From positions 1-32,496 of the forward strand of contig JAUSLL010000005.1 of NCBI GenBank assembly GCA_030649335.1: a stretch of DNA of 32,496 nt, given 5' to 3'. Position 1 is the stretch's first letter. Every line of letters begins with the position of its first letter. This document shows, in pieces, positions 3,289 through 25,191 of the stretch. The position numbers and the translations under genes were made by a program. Source of the DNA: Parvibaculum sp. (GTDB lineage Bacteria; Pseudomonadota; Alphaproteobacteria; Parvibaculales; Parvibaculaceae). The notes under the pieces are model-generated. The model had not been told where the DNA came from. It worked only from the letters and a program-made list of their open reading frames with translations, and did not search any database.

Positions 3289-3409
3289 GGGAACCTCCTG
3301 TTTTTGTTCCCACCAAAGATGATCGCGCGGCTGCGGCCTCGCAATTACCTCCAAAGTCATTGAATGGTCTGTACCCCGGCGGGATACTCAAGCACAAAAG
3401 GAGATGCTC

Positions 3410-4246
3410 GTGGCCCTCACATCACCCGCAAGCGCGCGCGCCGACACACGCGGCTTTCCCTATCTGCTGAAAAGCTGGCGGCAAAAACGCAGGCTGTCGC
3501 AACTTGATCTTGCGATGAACGCCAATGTCTCGCAGCGCCACGTGAGCTTTCTTGAATCAGGCCGCGCCAGCCCCAGCCGCAATATGATCCTGCAACTCAG
3601 CGAAGCACTGGAGGTGCCCTTGCGCGAACGCAATGACTGGCTGGTGGCGGCGGGCTTTGCGCCGATCTTCAAAGCGAGGCCACTGGACGATCCGCAAATG
3701 AACCAGGTGATGAACGCCGTTCAGATGATGCTCTCCAATCACGCGCCCTTTCCCGCCATTGCCATCGACCGGGCTTGGAACATTCGCTTGTCAAACGCAC
3801 CCTTCGACATGCTGACGACGATGATCGGCGCTGATATGTGGGAGAAGATTGCAGACCCCAAGCGCCCCGGACAGCACAATTTGATGCGGTTGTTTTTTCA
3901 CCCCGCTGGCATCCGCTCTTATGTGACCAACTGGCAAGCCGTCGCGCCATTGCTCTGGCACAGGGCACAGCGCGAGGCCGAAGCACTGGGCGGGCAAGAA
4001 ATGAAATCCGTGTTGCTGGAACTTGCCCAATATCAAGATTCCAACACGCTGTGGTCAGCGGAGGACGCAAACCTTGTGCCGGTGCTGCCGCTGGAAATGG
4101 AGAAAGACGGCGCGCGCATTTCACTGTTCACAGTGATCGCCACTTTCGGCACGGCGCAAGACGTGACGGCGGACGAGCTGCGCATCGAGAGCTTGTTTCC
4201 GGCAGACGAGGCGACCGAACAATTATTTCGTGCGATGGCAGGATAA
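3410..4246 (+). CDS. XRE-family regulator with MmyB-like ligand-binding domain
   Basis: The 278-residue product has an N-terminal helix-turn-helix (about residues 16-72, including SQLDLAMNANVSQRHVSFLE). The C-terminal region resembles the MmyB-like domain seen in many actinobacterial and proteobacterial regulators, where it is thought to bind a small lipid-like ligand; it includes AIAIDRAWNIRLSN and NLMRLFFHP. Start choice: an ATG at 3404 abuts the AAGGAG site, while GTG at 3410 lies six bases beyond it, so GTG is preferred. It is divergent from the DUF2834-like gene, which it may control (inference), and convergent with the CoA hydrolase gene, five bases apart. Confidence 0.85.
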   Translation: MALTSPASARADTRGFPYLLKSWRQKRRLSQLDLAMNANVSQRHVSFLESGRASPSRNMILQLSEALEVPLRERNDWLVAAGFAPIFKARPLDDPQMNQVMNAVQMMLSNHAPFPAIAIDRAWNIRLSNAPFDMLTTMIGADMWEKIADPKRPGQHNLMRLFFHPAGIRSYVTNWQAVAPLLWHRAQREAEALGGQEMKSVLLELAQYQDSNTLWSAEDANLVPVLPLEMEKDGARISLFTVIATFGTAQDVTADELRIESLFPADEATEQLFRAMAG

Positions 4247-18253: not shown

Positions 18254-19789
18254 ATGCAGTGGACAGCAACTTACGTCTTCGTCAGCCTCTTTGTGTTCGT
18301 AACCGTGCTGGGCTTTGCCGCCGCGCGCTGGCGCGCGGGCGATCTCAACCACATCAATGAATGGGGCCTCGGCGGCCAGCGCTTCGGCACCATCGTCACC
18401 TGGTTCCTACTTGGCGGCGATCTTTACACGGCCTATACGTTCATCGCCGTACCTGCTCTTGTCTTCACCGCCGGGGCGCTCGGCTTTTTCGCCGTGCCCT
18501 ACACCGTCCTCGTCTATCCGCTGGTCTTCTTGATTTTCCCACGCATGTGGTCAGTTGCCCGCAAGCACGGGTTTGTCACTGCATCTGATTTTGTCAAAGG
18601 CCGCTACGGCCATCACGGGCTGGCGCTCGCCGTTGCTTTGACCGGCATCGTCGCCACCATGCCCTATATCGCCTTGCAGCTTGTCGGCCTTGAAACAGTG
18701 ATCGGCGCACTCGGCTTCGACACACACGGCACGATGGGCCATATGCCGCTCATCATCGCCTTCGTGATCCTTGCCGCCTTCACCTATTCAAGCGGCTTGC
18801 GCGCACCTGCCCTCATCGCCATCGTCAAAGATCTACTCATCTACATCACTGTCATCGCCGCTGTTGTCATCATTCCAAAGCAGCTCGGCGGCTTCGGTGC
18901 AATCTTTGCCGCTGTACCGACCGAACGTCTGACGCTTACGACGCCACCTGAAGGCAGTCTCGGCTTGTGGAGCGCCTATGCGACGCTTGCCTTCGGCTCC
19001 GCCCTCGCCCTCTTCCTCTATCCCCACTCGATGACCGGCGTACTCAGCGCCAGCTCTGCCAAAGTTATCAAGCGCAATGCAGCGATCCTACCCGCCTATT
19101 CGCTCGTGCTGGCGCTGCTGTCTCTGCTTGGCTACATGGCCTATGCGGCAGGCGTTGCCGACAAGCCGGAATTTGCCGAAGGCTTTGCCAAATACGGCGC
19201 GAACTTTGCGGTGCCCGCGCTTTTCCTTGATCAGTTTCAGGGTTGGTTTGCAGGTGTTGCATTCGCCGCCATCGGCATCGGCGCGCTGGTACCTGCAGCT
19301 ATCATGTCAATTGCCATTGCCAATCTTTTCACACGCAATATCTACAAGGAATATATCCGTCCCGATTGCAGCAGCCGTGATGAAGCGCGCGTCGCCAAAA
19401 TCGTCTCGCTGGTAGCAAAGGCCGGGGCACTGTTCTTTGTGCTGGCGCTCGACACCAAGCTCGCGATCCAGCTGCAGCTTCTGGGTGGCATCTGGATCAT
19501 CCAGACACTGCCGGCGGTCTTCTTCGGCCTCTACACACGCTGGCTCGATCCGCGCGCACTGCTTATCGGTTGGGCGGTAGGCATCGGCACCGGCACATGG
19601 ATGGCATGGATGCTCGCGTTCAAAGGCTCAATCTGGCCGTTGACGATCGCAGGCTACATCGTGCCGGGCTACGCCGCCTTCTACACGGTGATCCTGAATA
19701 TCGTGATTGCTGTGGTGTTGACGATTGTCTTCAAAATCGCTTCGAAGACGCGCCACGCCGACGTGACGGTCGCCAGCGACTACGCCTGA
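18254..19789 (+). CDS. mctP: Sodium:solute symporter, MctP-like monocarboxylate transporter
   Basis: The 511-residue protein has about 13 membrane segments typical of the SSS family. It shows INEWGLGGQRFGTIVTWFLLGGDLYTAYTF near the N-terminus and SGLRAPALIAIVKDLLIYI and SAALFTRN-type motifs further on (seen as SIAIANLFTRNIYKEYI). The pairing with DUF3311 and the overall pattern fit the rhizobial MctP group that imports lactate, pyruvate and related acids; the precise substrate is inferred. A GGAA site precedes the ATG. Its 3' end overlaps the convergent mtnC gene by ten bases. Confidence 0.82.
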   Translation: MQWTATYVFVSLFVFVTVLGFAAARWRAGDLNHINEWGLGGQRFGTIVTWFLLGGDLYTAYTFIAVPALVFTAGALGFFAVPYTVLVYPLVFLIFPRMWSVARKHGFVTASDFVKGRYGHHGLALAVALTGIVATMPYIALQLVGLETVIGALGFDTHGTMGHMPLIIAFVILAAFTYSSGLRAPALIAIVKDLLIYITVIAAVVIIPKQLGGFGAIFAAVPTERLTLTTPPEGSLGLWSAYATLAFGSALALFLYPHSMTGVLSASSAKVIKRNAAILPAYSLVLALLSLLGYMAYAAGVADKPEFAEGFAKYGANFAVPALFLDQFQGWFAGVAFAAIGIGALVPAAIMSIAIANLFTRNIYKEYIRPDCSSRDEARVAKIVSLVAKAGALFFVLALDTKLAIQLQLLGGIWIIQTLPAVFFGLYTRWLDPRALLIGWAVGIGTGTWMAWMLAFKGSIWPLTIAGYIVPGYAAFYTVILNIVIAVVLTIVFKIASKTRHADVTVASDYA

Positions 19790-20478
19790 ACAATTTTAAG
19801 GTCGGCGGGCCCGAAAGAGCCCGCCACCAAAACACCATTGTCGTCGTGCGAAAATTCGGCGTCGAGCGCACGGTCGATTTGCGCGACGAGCAACCCAGCA
19901 GCTCGCGCCGCAGCGACTTCGGCAGGCATATCAGTCAAAAACAAAATCTCGCCGGGGGCAATGCCGATGGCCTTAGCAATCGCCGCGTAAGACCCCGCAT
20001 CGACTTTCGCGCCGACCGCCGTGTCGAAATAACCACTGAACAACGGCGTCAGATCGCCCTTGTCGGAGAAACCGAAAATCAGCTTCTGCGCCGCCACCGA
20101 ACCCGACGAATAAACATAGAGTTTCAGTCCCTGACTTTGCCAGCAAAGAAGCAACGCCGCCGCATCGTCATAGACCTGACCTTTGAGAACGCCCGCCTCA
20201 TAACCCGTCTGCCAGATCAATCCCTGGAGTGTTTTGAGCGCGCCCGCCTTGCGATCTTCGTCCATCCACCGGAGCAAGACGGCAACCGTCTCGTCGAGCG
20301 ATTGCGCACCGCTCTCGGCCCGCACTGCGCTGAGCGCCTCGGCAACCACGGGATCTGCCTGATGAGTGCTGCAAAATTCGGCAAGCCGCGCACGCGCATA
20401 GGGAAACAACACCTCATGCACAAAAGCAATCGGTGTGGTCGTACCTTCAATATCTGTGACGATGGCGCGGATGGTCAT
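19780..20478 (-). CDS. mtnC: Enolase-phosphatase E1 of methionine salvage
   Basis: The 232-residue HAD-superfamily enzyme starts MTIRAIVTDIEGTTTPI; Asp9 and Glu11 are the nucleophile/metal residues of the family motif DIEGT. It also shows YVYSSGSVAAQKLIFG and FLTDMPAEVAAARAAG. It converts diketo-methylthiopentyl-phosphate to acireductone. The frame extends 51 codons upstream into mtnD, but ATG at 20478 gives the normal length and lies seven bases after the mtnD stop. It is the last gene of mtnBDC. Confidence 0.93.
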   Translation of the reverse strand: MTIRAIVTDIEGTTTPIAFVHEVLFPYARARLAEFCSTHQADPVVAEALSAVRAESGAQSLDETVAVLLRWMDEDRKAGALKTLQGLIWQTGYEAGVLKGQVYDDAAALLLCWQSQGLKLYVYSSGSVAAQKLIFGFSDKGDLTPLFSGYFDTAVGAKVDAGSYAAIAKAIGIAPGEILFLTDMPAEVAAARAAGLLVAQIDRALDAEFSHDDNGVLVAGSFGPADLKIVQA

Positions 20479-20485
20479 GAGCGGA

Positions 20486-21031
20486 TCAATTGACGAAGGC
20501 AGGAAAACGCGTGGCGATGTCGTCGCCGGTGAAATTTCCGACCCAACCATCTGCCGAGGTAAAAATGCGGATCGCACAAAAATGCGGGCGCTCGCCCGTA
20601 TCGAACCAATGGGTGATACCGGCAGGCACACTCAGCAAATCATTGCGTTCGCAGACAATGCGGTAGACCCGACCGCCCTTACGCAAATAAAACGCTCCTG
20701 CCCCTTCGACAAAAAATCGCACTTCGTCTTCGGCATGCGTGTGTTCCGCGAGGAACTTGGCTCGCATGGCAACACGGTCAGGATGATCAGGTTTCACGCG
20801 CACGACATCAACCGTCTGATACCCACCTTCGCGCATCAGCTTTTTCACCTGCGCGTCATAAGCCGCCAGCACTGAGGCCTGATCCGCATCATCGCCAAGC
20901 GCGACCGAGGCTTCCCAGCGTTCAAAATCAACATCAATCTCACGCAACACGCGGGCGATCTCGTCGCCGTCGCGCGTATCGGTAAGAACCGTCGCGGGGT
21001 CTGTATCGGGATAGACGGTGAGATGGGTCAT
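20486..21031 (-). CDS. mtnD: Acireductone dioxygenase
   Basis: The 181-residue cupin carries the metal ligands His97, His99 and Glu103 in EHTHAEDEVRFFVEG, and His141 in PAGITHWFDTGE. It oxidises acireductone to the 2-keto precursor of methionine plus formate (iron form). The ATG overlaps the mtnB stop by four bases (ATGA), and mtnC follows after seven bases, so the three genes should be co-translated. Confidence 0.94.
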   Translation of the reverse strand: MTHLTVYPDTDPATVLTDTRDGDEIARVLREIDVDFERWEASVALGDDADQASVLAAYDAQVKKLMREGGYQTVDVVRVKPDHPDRVAMRAKFLAEHTHAEDEVRFFVEGAGAFYLRKGGRVYRIVCERNDLLSVPAGITHWFDTGERPHFCAIRIFTSADGWVGNFTGDDIATRFPAFVN

Positions 21032-21657
21032 CGCGCGTTTTCCTCCGAAAGAATGGCGGTCAAAAGAAAATCAAAAGCATCCATGTGGCGGATCGTGTCG
21101 CGCGCCGTCGCGCCCCAGATGTAAAGCCCGTGTCCGGCAATGAGATAGCCCGGCGCATTGAGCCCGACACGCATCCGTTCCTCGACAAGAGCGCCGAGCC
21201 GATCTGTGTCCTGATCGTTCGGCACGATGGGTAGATCAAGTGCCGCCTCATGCGTTGTGACACCCGAGAAGGCTTTGAGCAATTCCCAGCCTTCCAGACG
21301 CAACACACCCGCCTTCTCGTGGCGGCGAGACAGCAACGTCGCGGGCAGCGAATGAATATGCGCAATGGCACCGATCTGCGGGCTTGTCGCATAACGCATC
21401 AGATGGAGCGGTGCTTCTGCTGAGGCTCGGGGGTGTTTGGGGCCGGTGATCGCGGCAGCGATGACTTCGGCTTCGCTCAGGCGCGCCTTGTCGGCACCGG
21501 TCGCCGTGACGGCAGCTTCGCTCGCGCTCATCCGAACTGAAAAATTGCCGCTGGTTGCAGGCACCCATTGGCGGGCGCCGGAAAAATGCGCCATGGCCAT
21601 CACACCTGAGGCGGCATCGCTGAGCGAAAGGGTCTGTATCTCGGTCATATCAGGCAT
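21028..21657 (-). CDS. mtnB: Methylthioribulose-1-phosphate dehydratase
   Basis: The 209-residue class II aldolase-fold enzyme shows WVPATSGNFSVR, SAEAPLHL (catalytic Glu81) and zinc ligands His100 and His102 in AHIHSLPATLLSR. A third His lies in LIAGHGLYIWG. It dehydrates methylthioribulose-1-phosphate. The frame could start at 21681 or 21648; ATG at 21657 has a GGAA site close upstream. It is the first gene of mtnBDC. The other salvage genes (mtnA, mtnK or mtnP, mtnE) are not in the window. Confidence 0.92.
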   Translation of the reverse strand: MPDMTEIQTLSLSDAASGVMAMAHFSGARQWVPATSGNFSVRMSASEAAVTATGADKARLSEAEVIAAAITGPKHPRASAEAPLHLMRYATSPQIGAIAHIHSLPATLLSRRHEKAGVLRLEGWELLKAFSGVTTHEAALDLPIVPNDQDTDRLGALVEERMRVGLNAPGYLIAGHGLYIWGATARDTIRHMDAFDFLLTAILSEENAR

Positions 21658-21836
21658 GAGGTTCCGTTGGTCTGGCCGCATCGCACCGGCGGCAAGGCAA
21701 TTTCACGGGCCCTATTTAAGCCCTTCTGCGCAAACATCAATTTAAGGATTTTTGTCAGTCCGCTGTCACCCATGAATCATGCACGTCGGCGGCTGAATGC
21801 ACGTAAAACGAGAAACTCCATTTTTCAATAACCCGT

Positions 21837-21847
21837 TATGGTTGTAT
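21837..21847 (+). repeat. Left copy of the 11-bp direct repeat flanking the IS1595-type element
   Basis: TATGGTTGTAT occurs here and again at 24604-24614, directly next to the right inverted repeat. It is probably the target duplication, although 23 bases (21848-21870) separate this copy from the left inverted repeat and the family usually duplicates 8 bp. Confidence 0.55.
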
Positions 21848-21939
21848 TAAACATTTTATATGTAACTATGGTGGTCATTGTATACTTTGCAAACCCACAC
21901 TGAATTGTGTAGCATCTTGCTAATCAACAGGGGGCACAC

Positions 21940-22182
21940 ATGACGCAGATTGTGATTGAGGCCATCTCTAACGCGGAAGAGCCGGACCGGCGAACTTATC
22001 ATCTTCTGATTGAATATAGCCGTGGGCAAGCGCGGCTAGAACTTCCGGTAAAAGCCGCTCGATCTCCTGAAGAGCAGGGCACTGAAGCCTGCCGTCGTGA
22101 GTTGTTGACGCTTCTGGAAGAACTCCAGACCGCAACACTTCACCCTCAAGGAATACAGTGGCCCTATCAGGGGAAAAGCTGA
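21940..22182 (+). CDS. Small unknown cargo protein, 80 residues
   Basis: The ATG follows a good AGGGGG site eight bases upstream. The product is acidic, with a beta-rich first half (TQIVIEAISN, RTYHLLIEYSRGQARLELPV) and a helical second half (EACRRELLTLLEELQTATL). No signal peptide, membrane segment or recognised domain is visible. It is the first gene inside the left end of the IS1595-type element. I do not recognise it. Confidence 0.6.
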   Translation: MTQIVIEAISNAEEPDRRTYHLLIEYSRGQARLELPVKAARSPEEQGTEACRRELLTLLEELQTATLHPQGIQWPYQGKS

Positions 22183-22280
22183 TCTTGGCTTTCATGCCGA
22201 TACCTCTTAGCGCCCCATACCCACGGGACTCGTAGGGCCATAATCGGGTACGCTGACAGTCCGACTCAGGAGGATTAGAA

Positions 22281-22487
22281 ATGGATACCAAAGAACGAGA
22301 CGCCGTGTTGAACGAACGCCGTATCGCAAGGATGGACGCGGATTTTGATCCCAATCTGCGGCCTGAAGCGATGCCCGCGCCTGAAATGCGTTTGGCTAAT
22401 GCTGCCGAGTACTCGGCTTATCAAATGGGGAAAATTCGCAAGGCTCTTGAGCGAATTGCGGATGTTCTGGAACAGAAGAATTCATAG
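22281..22487 (+). CDS. Small unknown cargo protein, 68 residues
   Basis: A near-perfect AGGAGG lies six bases before the ATG. The product is charged, with a Pro-rich middle (DPNLRPEAMPAPEMR) and a C-terminal amphipathic helix (MGKIRKALERIADVLEQKNS) that could mediate binding to a partner. No known domain is visible. It is the second plus-strand gene in the element, 98 bases after the 80-residue gene. Confidence 0.6.
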   Translation: MDTKERDAVLNERRIARMDADFDPNLRPEAMPAPEMRLANAAEYSAYQMGKIRKALERIADVLEQKNS

Positions 22488-22571
22488 ACACCCACACCTC
22501 CAAAGCACGCCATAGCGGCATTCCCGACTCCATCAATTCGTCTAAATCAGGTCCGTTGTTTTTCATGGCGT

Positions 22572-22598
22572 TAAAAAGCCCGCTCATTCGGCGGGCTT
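22572..22598 (-). terminator. Terminator overlapping the stop codon of the 55-residue gene
   Basis: An 8-bp stem (22576-22583 with 22591-22598) is followed on the minus strand by five T. The TGA stop of the 55-residue gene (22584-22586) lies in the loop and its last codons form one arm, so translation and termination are interleaved. Confidence 0.65.
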
Positions 22599-22751
22599 CT
22601 CCTTCTTGGGTTTGGCTTTTGCTAGTCGCCGCAGCTTCTCTTCAAATGCGGCTTCAGATTCATCCGCGCCAACATCCTTCGCCGCTTGTTTGAAGCGGTC
22701 CGATTGCTCTTGGTCTTGCAAGCTAGGGTCTTTTCCAGATGACTGAGCCAA
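22584..22751 (-). CDS. Small cargo protein, 55 residues, TTG start
   Basis: The product contains DPSLQDQEQSDRFKQAAKDV, then GADESEAAFEEKLRRLAKAK and a lysine/proline tail. This layout (EQS-RF, A-ALG-DES-AF, K-lysine tail) is one I recognise from many short hypothetical proteins of alphaproteobacteria. The frame extends further upstream, but TTG at 22751 begins the conserved part and has AAAGGG eight bases before it. Its first 13 bases overlap the start of the divergent DUF3800 gene. It ends in its own terminator. Function is unknown. Confidence 0.65.
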   Translation of the reverse strand: MAQSSGKDPSLQDQEQSDRFKQAAKDVGADESEAAFEEKLRRLAKAKPKKEKPAE

Positions 22752-23467
22752 ATCAAATACCCTTTGTTGATGCCTACATCGACGAAAGCAGTCAAACCGC
22801 ACATCGCTATCTTGTGCTTGGTGCGATTGTTTTGCCCGCTCAGAATACCGCTGAATTTTCAGAACTCTTTATAAAAACTAGATACCCAGAACTAAACGCC
22901 AATAGCGAAATGAAATGGGTAAAGGTCTCAAAAGGCAAAATCAGTTCTTATCTACGCGCTGTTGACCTATTTTTTGAAAAGCAATATTCCACCGCGCCCC
23001 ATTTTCATTCGCTGGTTGTAGATACAAGCAAAATTAACAATAGACGCTACAATCAGGGCGATAGAGAGATCGGCTTCAGTAAGGAAATATATCATCTCTC
23101 CATGAAAATTGGGCGGCTCTATAGGGGGCCATTTCATATTTACCCAGATCACCGTTTGACAAAACAAACACCTGATAAAGTTCGCAATATTCTAAATTTC
23201 GGAGCAAAAAAAAGAGGCGACAAAAGAGATTGGCCATTTAGAAGAATGCAATTCCGACACTCCGACCAAACACCAATGATTCAACTCGCTGATATCTTTA
23301 TCGGCGCCATCGCTTACCGAGTGAATGGTCATCATCTAGCTAAAGATGCTTCACCTGCAAAAATCGAACTGTCGCGATATGTTTTGGAAAAAGCTGGCAT
23401 ACCCGACCCAACGATAGACACCTCTATTCGAGGAAAGTTCACCATTTGGCATCGCAAGCTAAATTAA
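22739..23467 (+). CDS. DUF3800-family protein (RNase H-like fold candidate)
   Basis: The 242-residue protein opens with VDAYIDESSQTAHRYLVLGAIVL, where YIDES is the DUF3800 signature with an acidic pair. It ends with MIQLADIFIGAIAYRVNG, the QLAD motif that supplies another conserved Asp. Between them are GEMKW-like (SEMKWVKVS) and HFHSLVVDT. Members are often found in mobile elements and defence islands and are suspected nucleases; no activity is established to my knowledge. Codon use is AT-richer than the chromosomal genes. It overlaps the minus-strand 55-residue gene head to head by 13 bases. Confidence 0.8.
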   Translation: MTEPNQIPFVDAYIDESSQTAHRYLVLGAIVLPAQNTAEFSELFIKTRYPELNANSEMKWVKVSKGKISSYLRAVDLFFEKQYSTAPHFHSLVVDTSKINNRRYNQGDREIGFSKEIYHLSMKIGRLYRGPFHIYPDHRLTKQTPDKVRNILNFGAKKRGDKRDWPFRRMQFRHSDQTPMIQLADIFIGAIAYRVNGHHLAKDASPAKIELSRYVLEKAGIPDPTIDTSIRGKFTIWHRKLN

Positions 23468-23511
23468 CGTCCCATACTCCTAGACCATACTGGCCACCGT
23501 CTTGGACGGGT

Positions 23512-23529
23512 CTCCTACCTAGGTAGGAG
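23512..23529. repeat. 18-bp perfect palindrome between DUF3800 and the transposase
   Basis: CTCCTACCTAGGTAGGAG reads identically on both strands. It lies between the convergent 3' ends of the DUF3800 and transposase genes. It could be a terminator core, although there is no loop and no T run, or a protein binding site in the element. Confidence 0.4.
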
Positions 23530-23591
23530 CTTCGGAGCATAGGAGTTCTTCGCAGTTGAATCGGTATTTTCCACACCGTCAACTGATCTTT

Positions 23592-24515
23592 TTAGGACGC
23601 GTGAGACCCCCTATAAGTCAACCGCTTACCGCTGATGCCACGTAACGCGCGAATCGAGCGCTGATCGTCATTAACACCAAGCGATTCGCGCGCGTTATAA
23701 CGGAAATCAAACTCCGCCAAATAACGGTGCAAATGCTGCTCACCGCAATGCTGATAGACACCCTTCATGCCTTTTTTAAAGAGGCTGAAGTAACCTTCCA
23801 GCGTGTTCGTGTATGCCGCGCCGCGCACGTATTCGCCGCTGCTATGGTCAACCGTGTCATGCGCTGCAAAGCCGTAATCCTTGCGAACATACAGACCAGC
23901 CATGTCCGTCATCAGGTGGCTTTTCTTGCTCACGTTCGCGTCGATCACTTCGCGGACAATCTTCTTGGTCGCGCGCTCAATGTGGAAAGAGCGAACTTCG
24001 CCACCACGTTCAACCAGAGACAGAACCGCCAGCTTGTGACCAGCACCGCCAGTCTTTTTGACAGAACCCTTCTTGCGGCCAATGTAGGTCTCGTCAGACT
24101 CAACAATCTTGCCTTCGCCGCCAAGCGGACCCATGCCCACAGTGGTCATAGCTTCACGCAGACGGTGGGCCATGAACCAAGCCGTTTTGTAGGTCACGCC
24201 CAAGGTGCGATGTAGCTGGTGGGCGCTAATGCCCTTCTTGGAAGAGGCCAGCAGATAAGCTGCCTGAAACCAGAAGTGCAGTTTCACATGGCTGGACTCA
24301 AAAACCGTGCCGACCTTGACGGTAAACTGTTTGCGGCAATCACCGCACTTGTGGAGGCCGATGCGGATACGCTTCTCAGGGTTTGCCGTCATCTTGTAAA
24401 CGCGTCCCATGCAGCCACAGTGAGGGCAGACCGGACCTTCCGGCCAGATGATTGCCTCAAGCTTCGCATATGCGGCTTCTTCATTGTGAAAGTAGGGTTT
24501 GGACAGGACAGACAT
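23592..24515 (-). CDS. IS1595-family (ISXO2-like) transposase
   Basis: The 307-residue protein begins with a zinc ribbon (Cys30, Cys33 in CPHCG; Cys57, Cys60 in CGDC), then a helix-turn-helix region (SSKKGISAHQLHRTLGVTYK). The DDE-type catalytic domain has Asp141 in VESDETYIG, Asp204 in MTDMAGLY, and Asn237/Glu240 in NTLEGYFSLFKKG. The family signature HRYLAEFDFRYNAR follows. Length and domain order are normal, and the gene looks intact. It reads inward from the right end of the element. Confidence 0.93.
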   Translation of the reverse strand: MSVLSKPYFHNEEAAYAKLEAIIWPEGPVCPHCGCMGRVYKMTANPEKRIRIGLHKCGDCRKQFTVKVGTVFESSHVKLHFWFQAAYLLASSKKGISAHQLHRTLGVTYKTAWFMAHRLREAMTTVGMGPLGGEGKIVESDETYIGRKKGSVKKTGGAGHKLAVLSLVERGGEVRSFHIERATKKIVREVIDANVSKKSHLMTDMAGLYVRKDYGFAAHDTVDHSSGEYVRGAAYTNTLEGYFSLFKKGMKGVYQHCGEQHLHRYLAEFDFRYNARESLGVNDDQRSIRALRGISGKRLTYRGSHAS

Positions 24516-24603
24516 TGTAAGAACCTCAGAGAATCAGCCGTATTTCTGGCTATTCCTAAAGGTAGCACATTTCAAGTGGGTTTGTAAAGTATACAATCAC
24601 CAC

Positions 24604-24614
24604 TATGGTTGTAT
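24604..24614 (+). repeat. Right copy of the 11-bp direct repeat flanking the IS1595-type element
   Basis: TATGGTTGTAT directly abuts the right inverted repeat and runs into the ATG of the MarR-like gene. It is identical to 21837-21847. Confidence 0.55.
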
Positions 24615-25191
24615 GACCCAGCGATTCGAAATGCTCGAAAGAGCCGCCTCCGCCTCCGCTCCCGCCGCAACGCAGGATCGGAATGACCCATTGTTCAGCG
24701 AACTTGCAGCCGATCAGCGCGCGAGACACTTGCGACCCGGTTGGGGCGCAAGACAGGGGGGACCCCGACCGCCACTTCCGGCGGCAATCATCCCCAACCT
24801 CACGCAGGACCTCACCCCCGAACAAATGGCGCAGACCCGCCATTGGACCAAGCTTCTGCTCGATACCTATTCAGCCCGCACCGGATTCTTTCCAGATGGT
24901 CTATTCGCCGATCCCGCCTGGGACATGCTGCTCGACCTGATGCATGCCCGGCTCAACAACAAACAAATCTCGGTCTCAAGTCTCTGCATCGCGGCCCGCG
25001 TACCGGCCACAACAGCGCTGCGCCGCATCGGCGATCTTGTCGCCGCCGGATTGGCCGCACGCGTGAAAGATGTGACAGACGGGCGCCGCGTCTTCATCGA
25101 ACTCACACCCGACGGCATTACGCGCATGGAGCGCTATCTGGAGCTTTTTCGGACCGCCATCAACAAGCCAATGTGCGAACCCCGCCGCTGA
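24613..25191 (+). CDS. MarR-like winged-helix regulator
   Basis: The 192-residue protein has a low-complexity N-terminus. A winged-helix domain follows at about residues 98-180: DPAWDMLLDLMHARL, then SVSSLCIAARVPATTALRRI as the helix-turn-helix and DGRRVFIELTPDG as the wing. This pattern is common in alphaproteobacterial MarR-like regulators. The frame stays open into the IS element, but ATG at 24613 is the natural start. No good ribosome binding site remains upstream, because the element inserted nine bases away. It is convergent with the DUF1772-like gene, with a four-base gap. Confidence 0.75.
   Translation: MTQRFEMLERAASASAPAATQDRNDPLFSELAADQRARHLRPGWGARQGGPRPPLPAAIIPNLTQDLTPEQMAQTRHWTKLLLDTYSARTGFFPDGLFADPAWDMLLDLMHARLNNKQISVSSLCIAARVPATTALRRIGDLVAAGLAARVKDVTDGRRVFIELTPDGITRMERYLELFRTAINKPMCEPRR

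Follow-up and report, generated by a model that had tools for sequence, protein, structure and literature searches.

The window analysed here, a stretch of 32,496 nucleotides from Parvibaculum sp. (contig JAUSLL010000005.1), contains a mobile element of 2,729 bp at positions 21873-24601, delimited by its terminal repeats and a target duplication. The following features were assigned to it and to its immediate borders.

21865..21872, no strand: target-site duplication ACTATGGT, 8 bp, left copy; identical to 24602-24609, single copy in empty sites
21873..21898, plus strand: left terminal inverted repeat, 26 nt; 24/26 against the right repeat, with similar ends in related elements
21940..22182, plus strand: 80-residue ORF, putatively coding; ORF only, no relatives found
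22281..22487, plus strand: 68-residue ORF with AGGAGG ahead of its ATG, putatively coding; ORF, no convincing relatives
22576..22598, minus strand (listed on the plus strand): terminator-like hairpin enclosing the final codons and the stop codon of the 55-residue gene
22584..22751, minus strand: 55-residue protein (C55, class S1), inferred TTG start at 22751; HMM census, pN/pS and tree
22739..23467, plus strand: DUF3800 protein, 242 residues, predicted RNase HII-like fold; Pfam, structure model and alignment
23592..24515, minus strand: IS1595-family transposase, 307 residues, intact; Pfam and NF033547 matches
24576..24601, minus strand: right terminal inverted repeat, 26 nt; matches the left repeat at 24/26
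24602..24609, no strand: target-site duplication ACTATGGT, right copy, ending 3 bp ahead of the ATG (24613) of a MarR-like gene

The transposase matches NF033547 (1.4e-55, 188.5 bits vs a cut-off of 75) and possesses an N-terminal zinc ribbon (PF12760, 2.1e-14, 53.6 bits vs a cut-off of 25.4) and an ISXO2-like DDE domain (PF12762, 2.9e-28). A target duplication of 8 bp is typical of the IS1595 family. With the DDE domain, the zinc ribbon, the 26-nt ends and the 8-bp duplication all present, the element is a member of this family. The preliminary description of the locus, which had recorded an intact zinc-ribbon DDE transposase, terminal repeats matching at 24/26 positions, small ORFs of 80, 68 and 55 residues and a DUF3800 gene, was borne out on all of these points. 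The limits it had given, 21837-24614, are corrected here to 21873-24601. Those outer positions lie on an 11-bp direct repeat, TATGGTTGTAT, and much the same repeats (TATRGTTGTG and TATGGTTGTA) stand at the same spot in four relatives that lack the element; the outer repeats are therefore older than the insertion, and were ruled out as target duplications. The empty site, with ACTATGGT present once, was found in four genomes of the same genus. No further copy of the element was detected in its own genome (92.8% complete), and a repeat search of 21500-24900 revealed no repeat array. Letters resembling TTGACA are visible in the terminal repeats of relatives; a promoter scan of 21800-24700 gave 0 sigma-70-like sites vs a mean of 2.8 in shuffles, and promoters in the terminal repeats are therefore not claimed. 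The lack of a sigma-70-like site was counted against the chassis interpretation given below.

The DUF3800 protein scores 46.4 bits against PF12686 (cut-off 21), with residues 12-194 aligned to positions 2-149 of the 149-position profile. Its AlphaFold model has a pLDDT of 92, and the best fold match is RNase HII (1eke, E 1e-5); all 13 PDB matches at E<=0.001 are type 2 RNase H or RNase H3 chains, with TM scores of 0.40-0.55. A sequence-profile search of the PDB returned nothing significant, one match having E 0.34. Among the alignment rows reaching them, the acids D15/E16 are conserved in 18/18, D137 in 19/19 and D185 in 16/16. A type 2 RNase H fold with conserved acids is predicted for this protein. 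It resembles RNase HII and the catalytic subunit of RNase H2 in its fold, and its DE pair on the first strand and two further aspartates would be the counterparts of their catalytic acids, whereas its identity to 1eke is only 14-16% and the TM score about 0.5, a value that was also counted against the chassis interpretation. Known structured RNA beside the gene was rejected as a candidate: Rfam gave seven matches around the hairpin and the 55-residue gene, all below gathering scores, and the hairpin underlies them. According to the available text of PMC10910872 and PMC12669027, DUF3800 proteins with the nuclease fold of RNase H are found next to Cas12a2 as well as in CRISPR types VI-F and V-A2; that of PMC10910872 also mentions a link to putative ncRNAs. 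The window protein is of the same family; unlike those CRISPR-linked proteins, it stands alone in a transposon that has no repeat array, and the five element proteins gave no match to Cas families. No toxin-antitoxin family was matched in the window.

Neither the 80- nor the 68-residue ORF matched anything in the plasmid collection (E<=0.1) or has a relative among the other compared element loci, and in 190 genomes of the class the former matched only itself and the latter itself and one weak hit (E 0.008). The full set has therefore been seen once. The preliminary description had viewed the cargo as a small set serving defence or otherwise benefiting the element or host. An IS1595 element whose cargo includes a predicted nuclease is indeed present, and the genes that could be recognised in relatives agree with such a benefit. 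The four genes do not form a conserved set, and two of them are seen with confidence only here. The corresponding rival explanation, that the four non-transposase genes form a defence set selected together, draws on their lying inside one element, on the largely nuclease, antitoxin and restriction-modification cargo of relatives, and on the match of DUF3800 to a PADLOC candidate family (PDC-M04A, 1.2e-32, with similarity also to PDC-S51). Set against the two ORFs without confident relatives, we regard it as very unlikely.

Relatives were compared in two sets, whose loci are numbered with the prefix L. The first set, on which the HMMs were trained, took 41 of the 52 transposase matches outside the window; among its members are the window itself and three elements found through DUF3800. 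The ends of L007 were placed manually, and those chosen for L100 may be incorrect. The viral-contig set took 80 of 82 loci, with L207 and L241 as duplicates, and 42 intact, bounded, non-redundant elements were counted. Plasmids provided 386 records with a match, six of which were examined. A K/P-rich small protein of ~50 residues, of the same class as the 55-residue protein or of another, was detected by HMM (E<=0.01) in 43/45 first-set elements bounded by terminal repeats and in 35/42 viral-contig elements, or 32/42 when HMMs from the first set alone were used. The remaining 2/45 and 7/42 elements, with no HMM-detected small protein, were counted against the chassis interpretation. Two small proteins never occur in one element of either set, and only 1 of 1,116 ORFs in the DNA flanking the viral-contig elements encodes one. 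Class S1 lies on the transposase strand in 26/26 cases, and the other S classes on the opposite strand in 48/52. The 55-residue protein is modelled as two helices (pLDDT 72), for which the PDB gave no match at E<=10. The census suggests that the constant partner in these elements would be a little-known protein of this size.

The cargo, on the other hand, varies from element to element around this partner. Most cargo recognised in the relatives of both sets is nuclease, antitoxin or restriction-modification. In the first set, 39 of 60 selected cargo proteins reach no Pfam cut-off, and the group can thus be mined for candidate defence genes. DUF3800 was found in 4/47 elements recruited by the transposase alone (among the 60 selected proteins) and in 1/56 cargo proteins of the viral-contig set; in the class genomes, 1/30 DUF3800 loci adjoins such a transposase within 1.5-kb flanks, and this is the window itself. 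The DUF3800 background was the sole control for cargo content; this, the many first-set cargo proteins below the Pfam cut-offs and the rarity of DUF3800 as cargo were likewise counted against the chassis interpretation.

The two components were mapped on a quick transposase tree (SH-aLRT only, with open forks), from which L026 and L077 were excluded for internal stops and in which L009 and L010 are represented by their first 207-208 residues; L062 and L069 were excluded from A2. The division of S1 from the rest takes 3 changes (shuffled mean 16.4, 0/500 as low, 49 rows, the small-protein labels of L070, L085, L089 and L092 being set by eye), and cargo class, also set by eye, takes 16 (shuffled mean 21.0, 0/500 as low, 32 rows). 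When only the 32 rows whose cargo is named are used, the S classes take 6 changes vs a mean of 12.5, with 1/500 as low, which was counted against the chassis interpretation. In the main, the small protein appears to track the transposase tree more than the cargo does. S1 is found within the S2 region of the tree in L073 and in L069 with L080, which was counted against the chassis interpretation; L073 and L080 carry DUF3800, so the small protein there may have come with the cargo. In 16 DNA pairs, the most similar ones with a small gene in both and compared on the plus strand only, the transposase and small-gene DNA are common (47-175 bp, 79-90%) and the rest of the cargo region is not; four of these pairs are repetitions of others, L207 being a duplicate. 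In L240 (transposase 67%) the small protein is retained (30/41 residues) beside different cargo, and the 55-residue protein itself is seen in relatives with unrelated cargo. These comparisons show that, as far as sequences can tell, the 55-residue protein behaves as a part of the transposon, kept with the transposase across cargo changes. Cargo that differs from copy to copy, which the preliminary description had named as speaking against its cargo set, is what is seen with DUF3800, but the 55-residue protein does not vary in this way.

We consider it probable that in this cargo-bearing IS1595-family transposon the transposase, the small protein and the terminal repeats form a chassis around which cargo genes have been exchanged. 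DUF3800 would actively cleave RNA or RNA/DNA hybrids, presumably to the benefit of the element or its host; the likeliest roles would be action against phages or competing mobile elements, or stabilisation in the manner of a toxin gene. More tentatively, the 55-residue protein might be a chassis factor that assists or modulates transposition, or governs how the adjoining cargo is expressed, because its gene outlasts cargo changes and, in many relatives, lies head-to-head with the cargo gene so that their start codons meet.

The arrangement in the window raises another possibility, namely that the 55-residue protein and DUF3800 are a mutually specific toxin-antitoxin or regulator-effector pair captured together by the insertion sequence. 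The two genes are head-to-head, with starts overlapping by 13 nt provided that the small gene begins at the TTG (22751), and starts are similarly tight in L014, L026 and L027. The order of transposase, DUF3800 and S1 gene is repeated in L014, L027, L073 and L077, and S1 and DUF3800 are also together in L080. The pair gains weight from this recurrence in four other elements and from L073 and L080, where S1, sitting among S2 transposases, may be cargo-borne. The same order elsewhere had been proposed as a check in the preliminary description; it is present in those four elements but not in L021, L026, L080 or L084. Moreover, S1 accompanies PIN, HEPN-like, DUF1829-like and other cargo, DUF3800 accompanies S2 (L084) and S4 (L021, L026), and no small protein was detected at 45 other DUF3800 loci, one of which (L013) encodes a distantly related transposase (30%). 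Given also that the small protein mainly follows the transposase, a specific pair seems unlikely to us.

A further question is whether the small protein matters at all. In 38/56 divergent pairs, although not in the window, the small gene and the cargo are head-to-head with start codons sharing CATG, read in both frames. The upstream region of the cargo therefore lies inside the small gene, and the small ORF might be a by-product of DNA that serves as promoter and leader of the opposite-strand cargo. However, the pN/pS of the small gene is 0.20-0.47 in 29/30 listed pairs (0.89 in one), mostly with a third-position excess, the pairs having been chosen by protein similarity, which lowers pN. In addition, S1 is arranged in tandem on the strand of the PIN cargo in L007, L008, L062 and L063. 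A mere by-product is accordingly quite improbable.

Returning to the chassis interpretation, nearly all bounded elements examined share one plan, that of a transposase, one small protein and variable cargo with recurrent nucleases, antitoxins and restriction genes; passenger genes of insertion sequences are otherwise easily mistaken for accidental captures. A broader proposal, possible but held with some reserve, is that a whole IS1595 clade acts as a platform on which nuclease, toxin and restriction-type cargo is exchanged, each element having one undescribed K/P-rich helical small protein that the chassis needs, either as transposase partner or for control of cargo expression, with cargo swapped beside the small gene, often at the shared CATG. 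If this were true, the small gene would be a natural docking and expression module for cargo. The shared start codons suggest, as a concrete hypothesis, how cargo could be swapped with its expression preserved, and the possible role of the small protein in transposition or cargo control is accessible in an element of 2-3 kb.

Passenger genes are already known in the IS1595 family. In the available text of PMC5704250, such elements (tIS), e.g. MTnSag1 and tISCpe8, have a DDE transposase and 25-bp terminal inverted repeats; both are described as mobilisable, and tISCpe8 is titled a lincomycin resistance element. The IS1595-family paper of Siguier, Gagnevin and Chandler (2009) is cited there and in the corresponding part of PMC7986276. 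The present elements share with tIS the IS1595 DDE transposase, short terminal inverted repeats and passenger genes; unlike tISCpe8 and MTnSag1, they have a near-universal small protein and, where recognised, mainly nuclease, antitoxin or restriction cargo. Full-text searches of the open literature turned up no account of the small protein or the cargo group, and a description in subscription papers is possible. Type II toxin-antitoxin loci occur on mobile elements, with PIN/VapC, SocA and DUF433 with PIN_10 among the pairings. Cargo of this type is found in the relatives L007, L008, L061, L063 and L083; unlike in such loci, the small protein is shared among several types of cargo.

In the transposon of the window, a transposase, a small protein and two ends probably form a chassis for exchangeable cargo, and the predicted DUF3800 nuclease is the cargo of this copy. 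The features of the transposon are as follows.

21873-24601: transposon of 2,729 bp, with 26-nt terminal repeats and a target duplication
22584-22751, minus strand: 55-residue ORF with a putative TTG start and AAAGGG eight bases upstream of the TTG
22739-23467, plus strand: DUF3800 protein, above the Pfam cut-off
23592-24515, minus strand: intact transposase, IS1595 family by score

The agreement of the terminal repeats at 24 of 26 positions and the intact transposase, both put forward in the preliminary description, were confirmed by repeat comparison and by the IS1595-family score, respectively. The limits proposed there, 21837-24614, had to be abandoned, since the 11-bp repeats at those positions match repeats pre-existing in the empty sites of relatives. 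Identical 8-bp copies of ACTATGGT border the transposon at both sides. When the flanks are rejoined with one target copy, they align over the junction to four genomes of the same genus, all with a single ACTATGGT; the alignment is 585 columns for L257, while those for L258, L259 and L265 are short, running 4-7 bases past the junction, with more matches downstream. The host genome holds the transposon in one copy. At 24602-24613, the right target copy stops 3 bp upstream of the ATG of a MarR-like regulator (by Pfam, HTH_27 at and MarR_2 below the cut-off). The transposon parts this gene from conserved upstream repeats TATRGTTGTG, which may be part of its control region. The neighbouring minus-strand genes at 19780-21681 encode a HAD hydrolase, an ARD dioxygenase and a class II aldolase by Pfam, presumably of the methionine salvage pathway.

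The DUF3800 protein matches the PADLOC candidate family PDC-M04A (1.2e-32). A structure model built from an alignment of 19 proteins has a mean pLDDT of 92, and its PDB search gave 13 matches at E<=0.001, topped by RNase HII (E 1e-5, TM ~0.5) and made up entirely of type 2 RNase H and RNase H3. Among the rows reaching each position, the first-strand DE pair is kept in 18/18, D137 in 19/19 and D185 in 16/16. The model agrees with published accounts in which DUF3800, encountered near Cas12a2 and in types VI-F and V-A2, is a nuclease with an RNase H fold (PMC10910872, PMC12669027), and we infer that the window protein is active as a nuclease.

Transposase relatives were collected from plasmids (six of 386 matching records sampled), from 385 class genomes (match at E<=1e-60 in 39; 41 of the 52 non-window matches fetched) and from viral contigs (80 of 82 loci kept). 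DUF3800 relatives, drawn from genome and viral contigs, added four loci with a transposase as well, at 44-60% identity (L014, L021, L026 and L027). The window element, six plasmid, 41 class-genome and four DUF3800-recruited elements form a first set of 52. Terminal repeats of like kind are present in most transposase loci with enough flank, and the layout runs from the transposase through ~0.7-3.6 kb of other genes to the far repeat. Bounded elements from viral contigs are 1,735 bp or longer, so that none of them is a bare transposase. Four further DUF3800 relatives at ~48-50% (L015, L017, L006 and L028, from Rhizobium and viral contigs) showed no transposase of this group in the fetched flanks. 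IS1595 elements with passenger genes are already known (PMC5704250, where Siguier 2009 is cited), which makes the present group a variant of that known kind.

Among 60 selected first-set proteins, 21 reached the curated Pfam cut-off, mainly as nuclease, antitoxin or restriction-modification families: PIN, PIN_10, NYN, HEPN, HEPN_MAE, SocA, DUF3800, GmrSD with or without HNH, and DNA methylase with Mrr. The exceptions are DUF433, DUF1828, an aspartyl-protease-like protein and, in an element whose ends were not located (L065), a HEAT protein. For L007, the record itself annotates a PIN protein. The 56 viral-contig cargo proteins, at most 19 with any family match, include DNA methylases, a Mrr-like protein, type I restriction parts, SocA, DUF1828, one PIN, one DUF3800 and one weak AraC-type domain; our own DUF3800 model, narrower than Pfam's, found none there. 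PADLOC assigned mad2 to at least three (best 25 of 191 families). Judging by the company it keeps, the window DUF3800 protein probably serves in defence or stabilisation. The sole control of cargo content is the DUF3800 background, with 31 places in 25 of 142 class genomes searched; among 30 loci with 1.5-kb flanks, only the window has DUF3800 adjoining such a transposase. DUF3800 occurs in 4 of 47 transposase-recruited elements, L073, L077 (DUF3800 partial, transposase with stops), L080 and L084. In one locus, L066, two related elements with different cargo lie back to back, one possibly inserted beside the other.

The earlier proposal of a cargo-bearing IS1595 element with a nuclease-like DUF3800 protein thus stands, but that of a conserved four-gene set does not, because the 80- and 68-residue ORFs turned up nowhere else with confidence: the plasmid collection gave no match, 190 genomes nothing convincing, and L014, L021, L026, L027, L073, L077, L080 and L084 contain none.

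The 55-residue protein (class S1) matches ORFs in 22 elements, on the transposase strand in all. Clustering of element ORFs gave a second class, S2, in 20 elements (motif RRMLxTPPKPH), and two small classes, S3 and S4. S2 and S3 merge upon iteration, and S1 aligns with S2 through its C-terminal half (hhalign probability 61%, P 8e-5); S1, S2 and S3 may therefore be a single superfamily, whereas S4 showed no convincing link. When only first-set elements served for training, the models found a small protein in 32/42 bounded non-redundant viral-contig elements and in 1/1,116 ORFs of flanking DNA. Training on both sets gave 35/42 viral-contig and 43/45 first-set elements, none with two small proteins; where an element gave no model match, inspection by eye still shows small K/P-rich ORFs, which is a judgement and not a count. 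Searched against 385 genomes, the S1 profile matched 21 places (E<=1e-9), eight of them not part of the profile; five of those eight adjoin transposases of this group, either whole or broken. Among the 30 pairs listed, pN/pS of the small ORF is 0.20-0.47 in 29 and 0.89 in one, values to be taken with caution since the pairs were picked by protein similarity.

On a quick 50-row transposase tree, S1 versus the other classes requires 3 changes (shuffled mean 16.4; 0/500 as low; 49 rows), and all four classes 6 (mean 20.0; 0/500). Cargo class, set by hand, requires 16 (mean 21.0; 0/500; 32 rows), against 6 for small-protein classes in the same rows (mean 12.5; 1/500). Cargo is therefore non-random on the tree, yet far more changeable than the small protein. 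In 16 pairs shown, DNA similarity covers the transposase with its end and the small gene (47-175 bp at 79-90%), in four also the far end; the remaining cargo region is not covered. The closest viral-contig transposase (L240, 67%) keeps the small protein at 30/41 residues beside an unrelated 146-residue ORF as cargo.

The small protein might instead be more closely tied to DUF3800 in particular elements. The window order of transposase, DUF3800 and S1 gene recurs in L014, L027, L073 and L077. S1 amid S2 transposases occurs in L073 and in the L069/L080 pair, with DUF3800 in two of the three, and this weakens the reading as a pure chassis. The S1 gene of L080 adjoins the transposase; L021, L026 and L084 have small proteins of other classes. 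The small gene went undetected at 45 further DUF3800 loci; among these, L013 has a distant relative of the transposase. The leading options for the small protein as part of the chassis are a transposition factor or a cargo regulator.

The 3′ end of the 55-residue ORF falls within a terminator-like hairpin. Provided the TTG is used, this ORF and the DUF3800 gene overlap at their starts by 13 nt; this overlap is all the window has, with no CATG shared as follows. In 56 non-redundant cases the small gene is divergent to a cargo frame 100 or more residues long; there, 51/69 CATG tetramers are in frame with both genes, and 38/56 pairs have at least one. A stricter count gave 44/71, versus 5/29 where an element has no divergent frame of this kind. 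The start-codon definition of the small gene biases one of the two frames; among the 55 CATG in the favoured frame, 51 fit the cargo frame as well, against one third expected.

Two loci depart from the usual layout. At ~4369-5411 of L136, ~1 kb between terminal-repeat-like ends holds a small protein by S1 profile search and the first 126 transposase residues only, possibly a non-autonomous derivative. At 3330-3767 (minus strand) of L063, the small-protein domain is seemingly extended to a 146-residue ORF beside a PIN gene.
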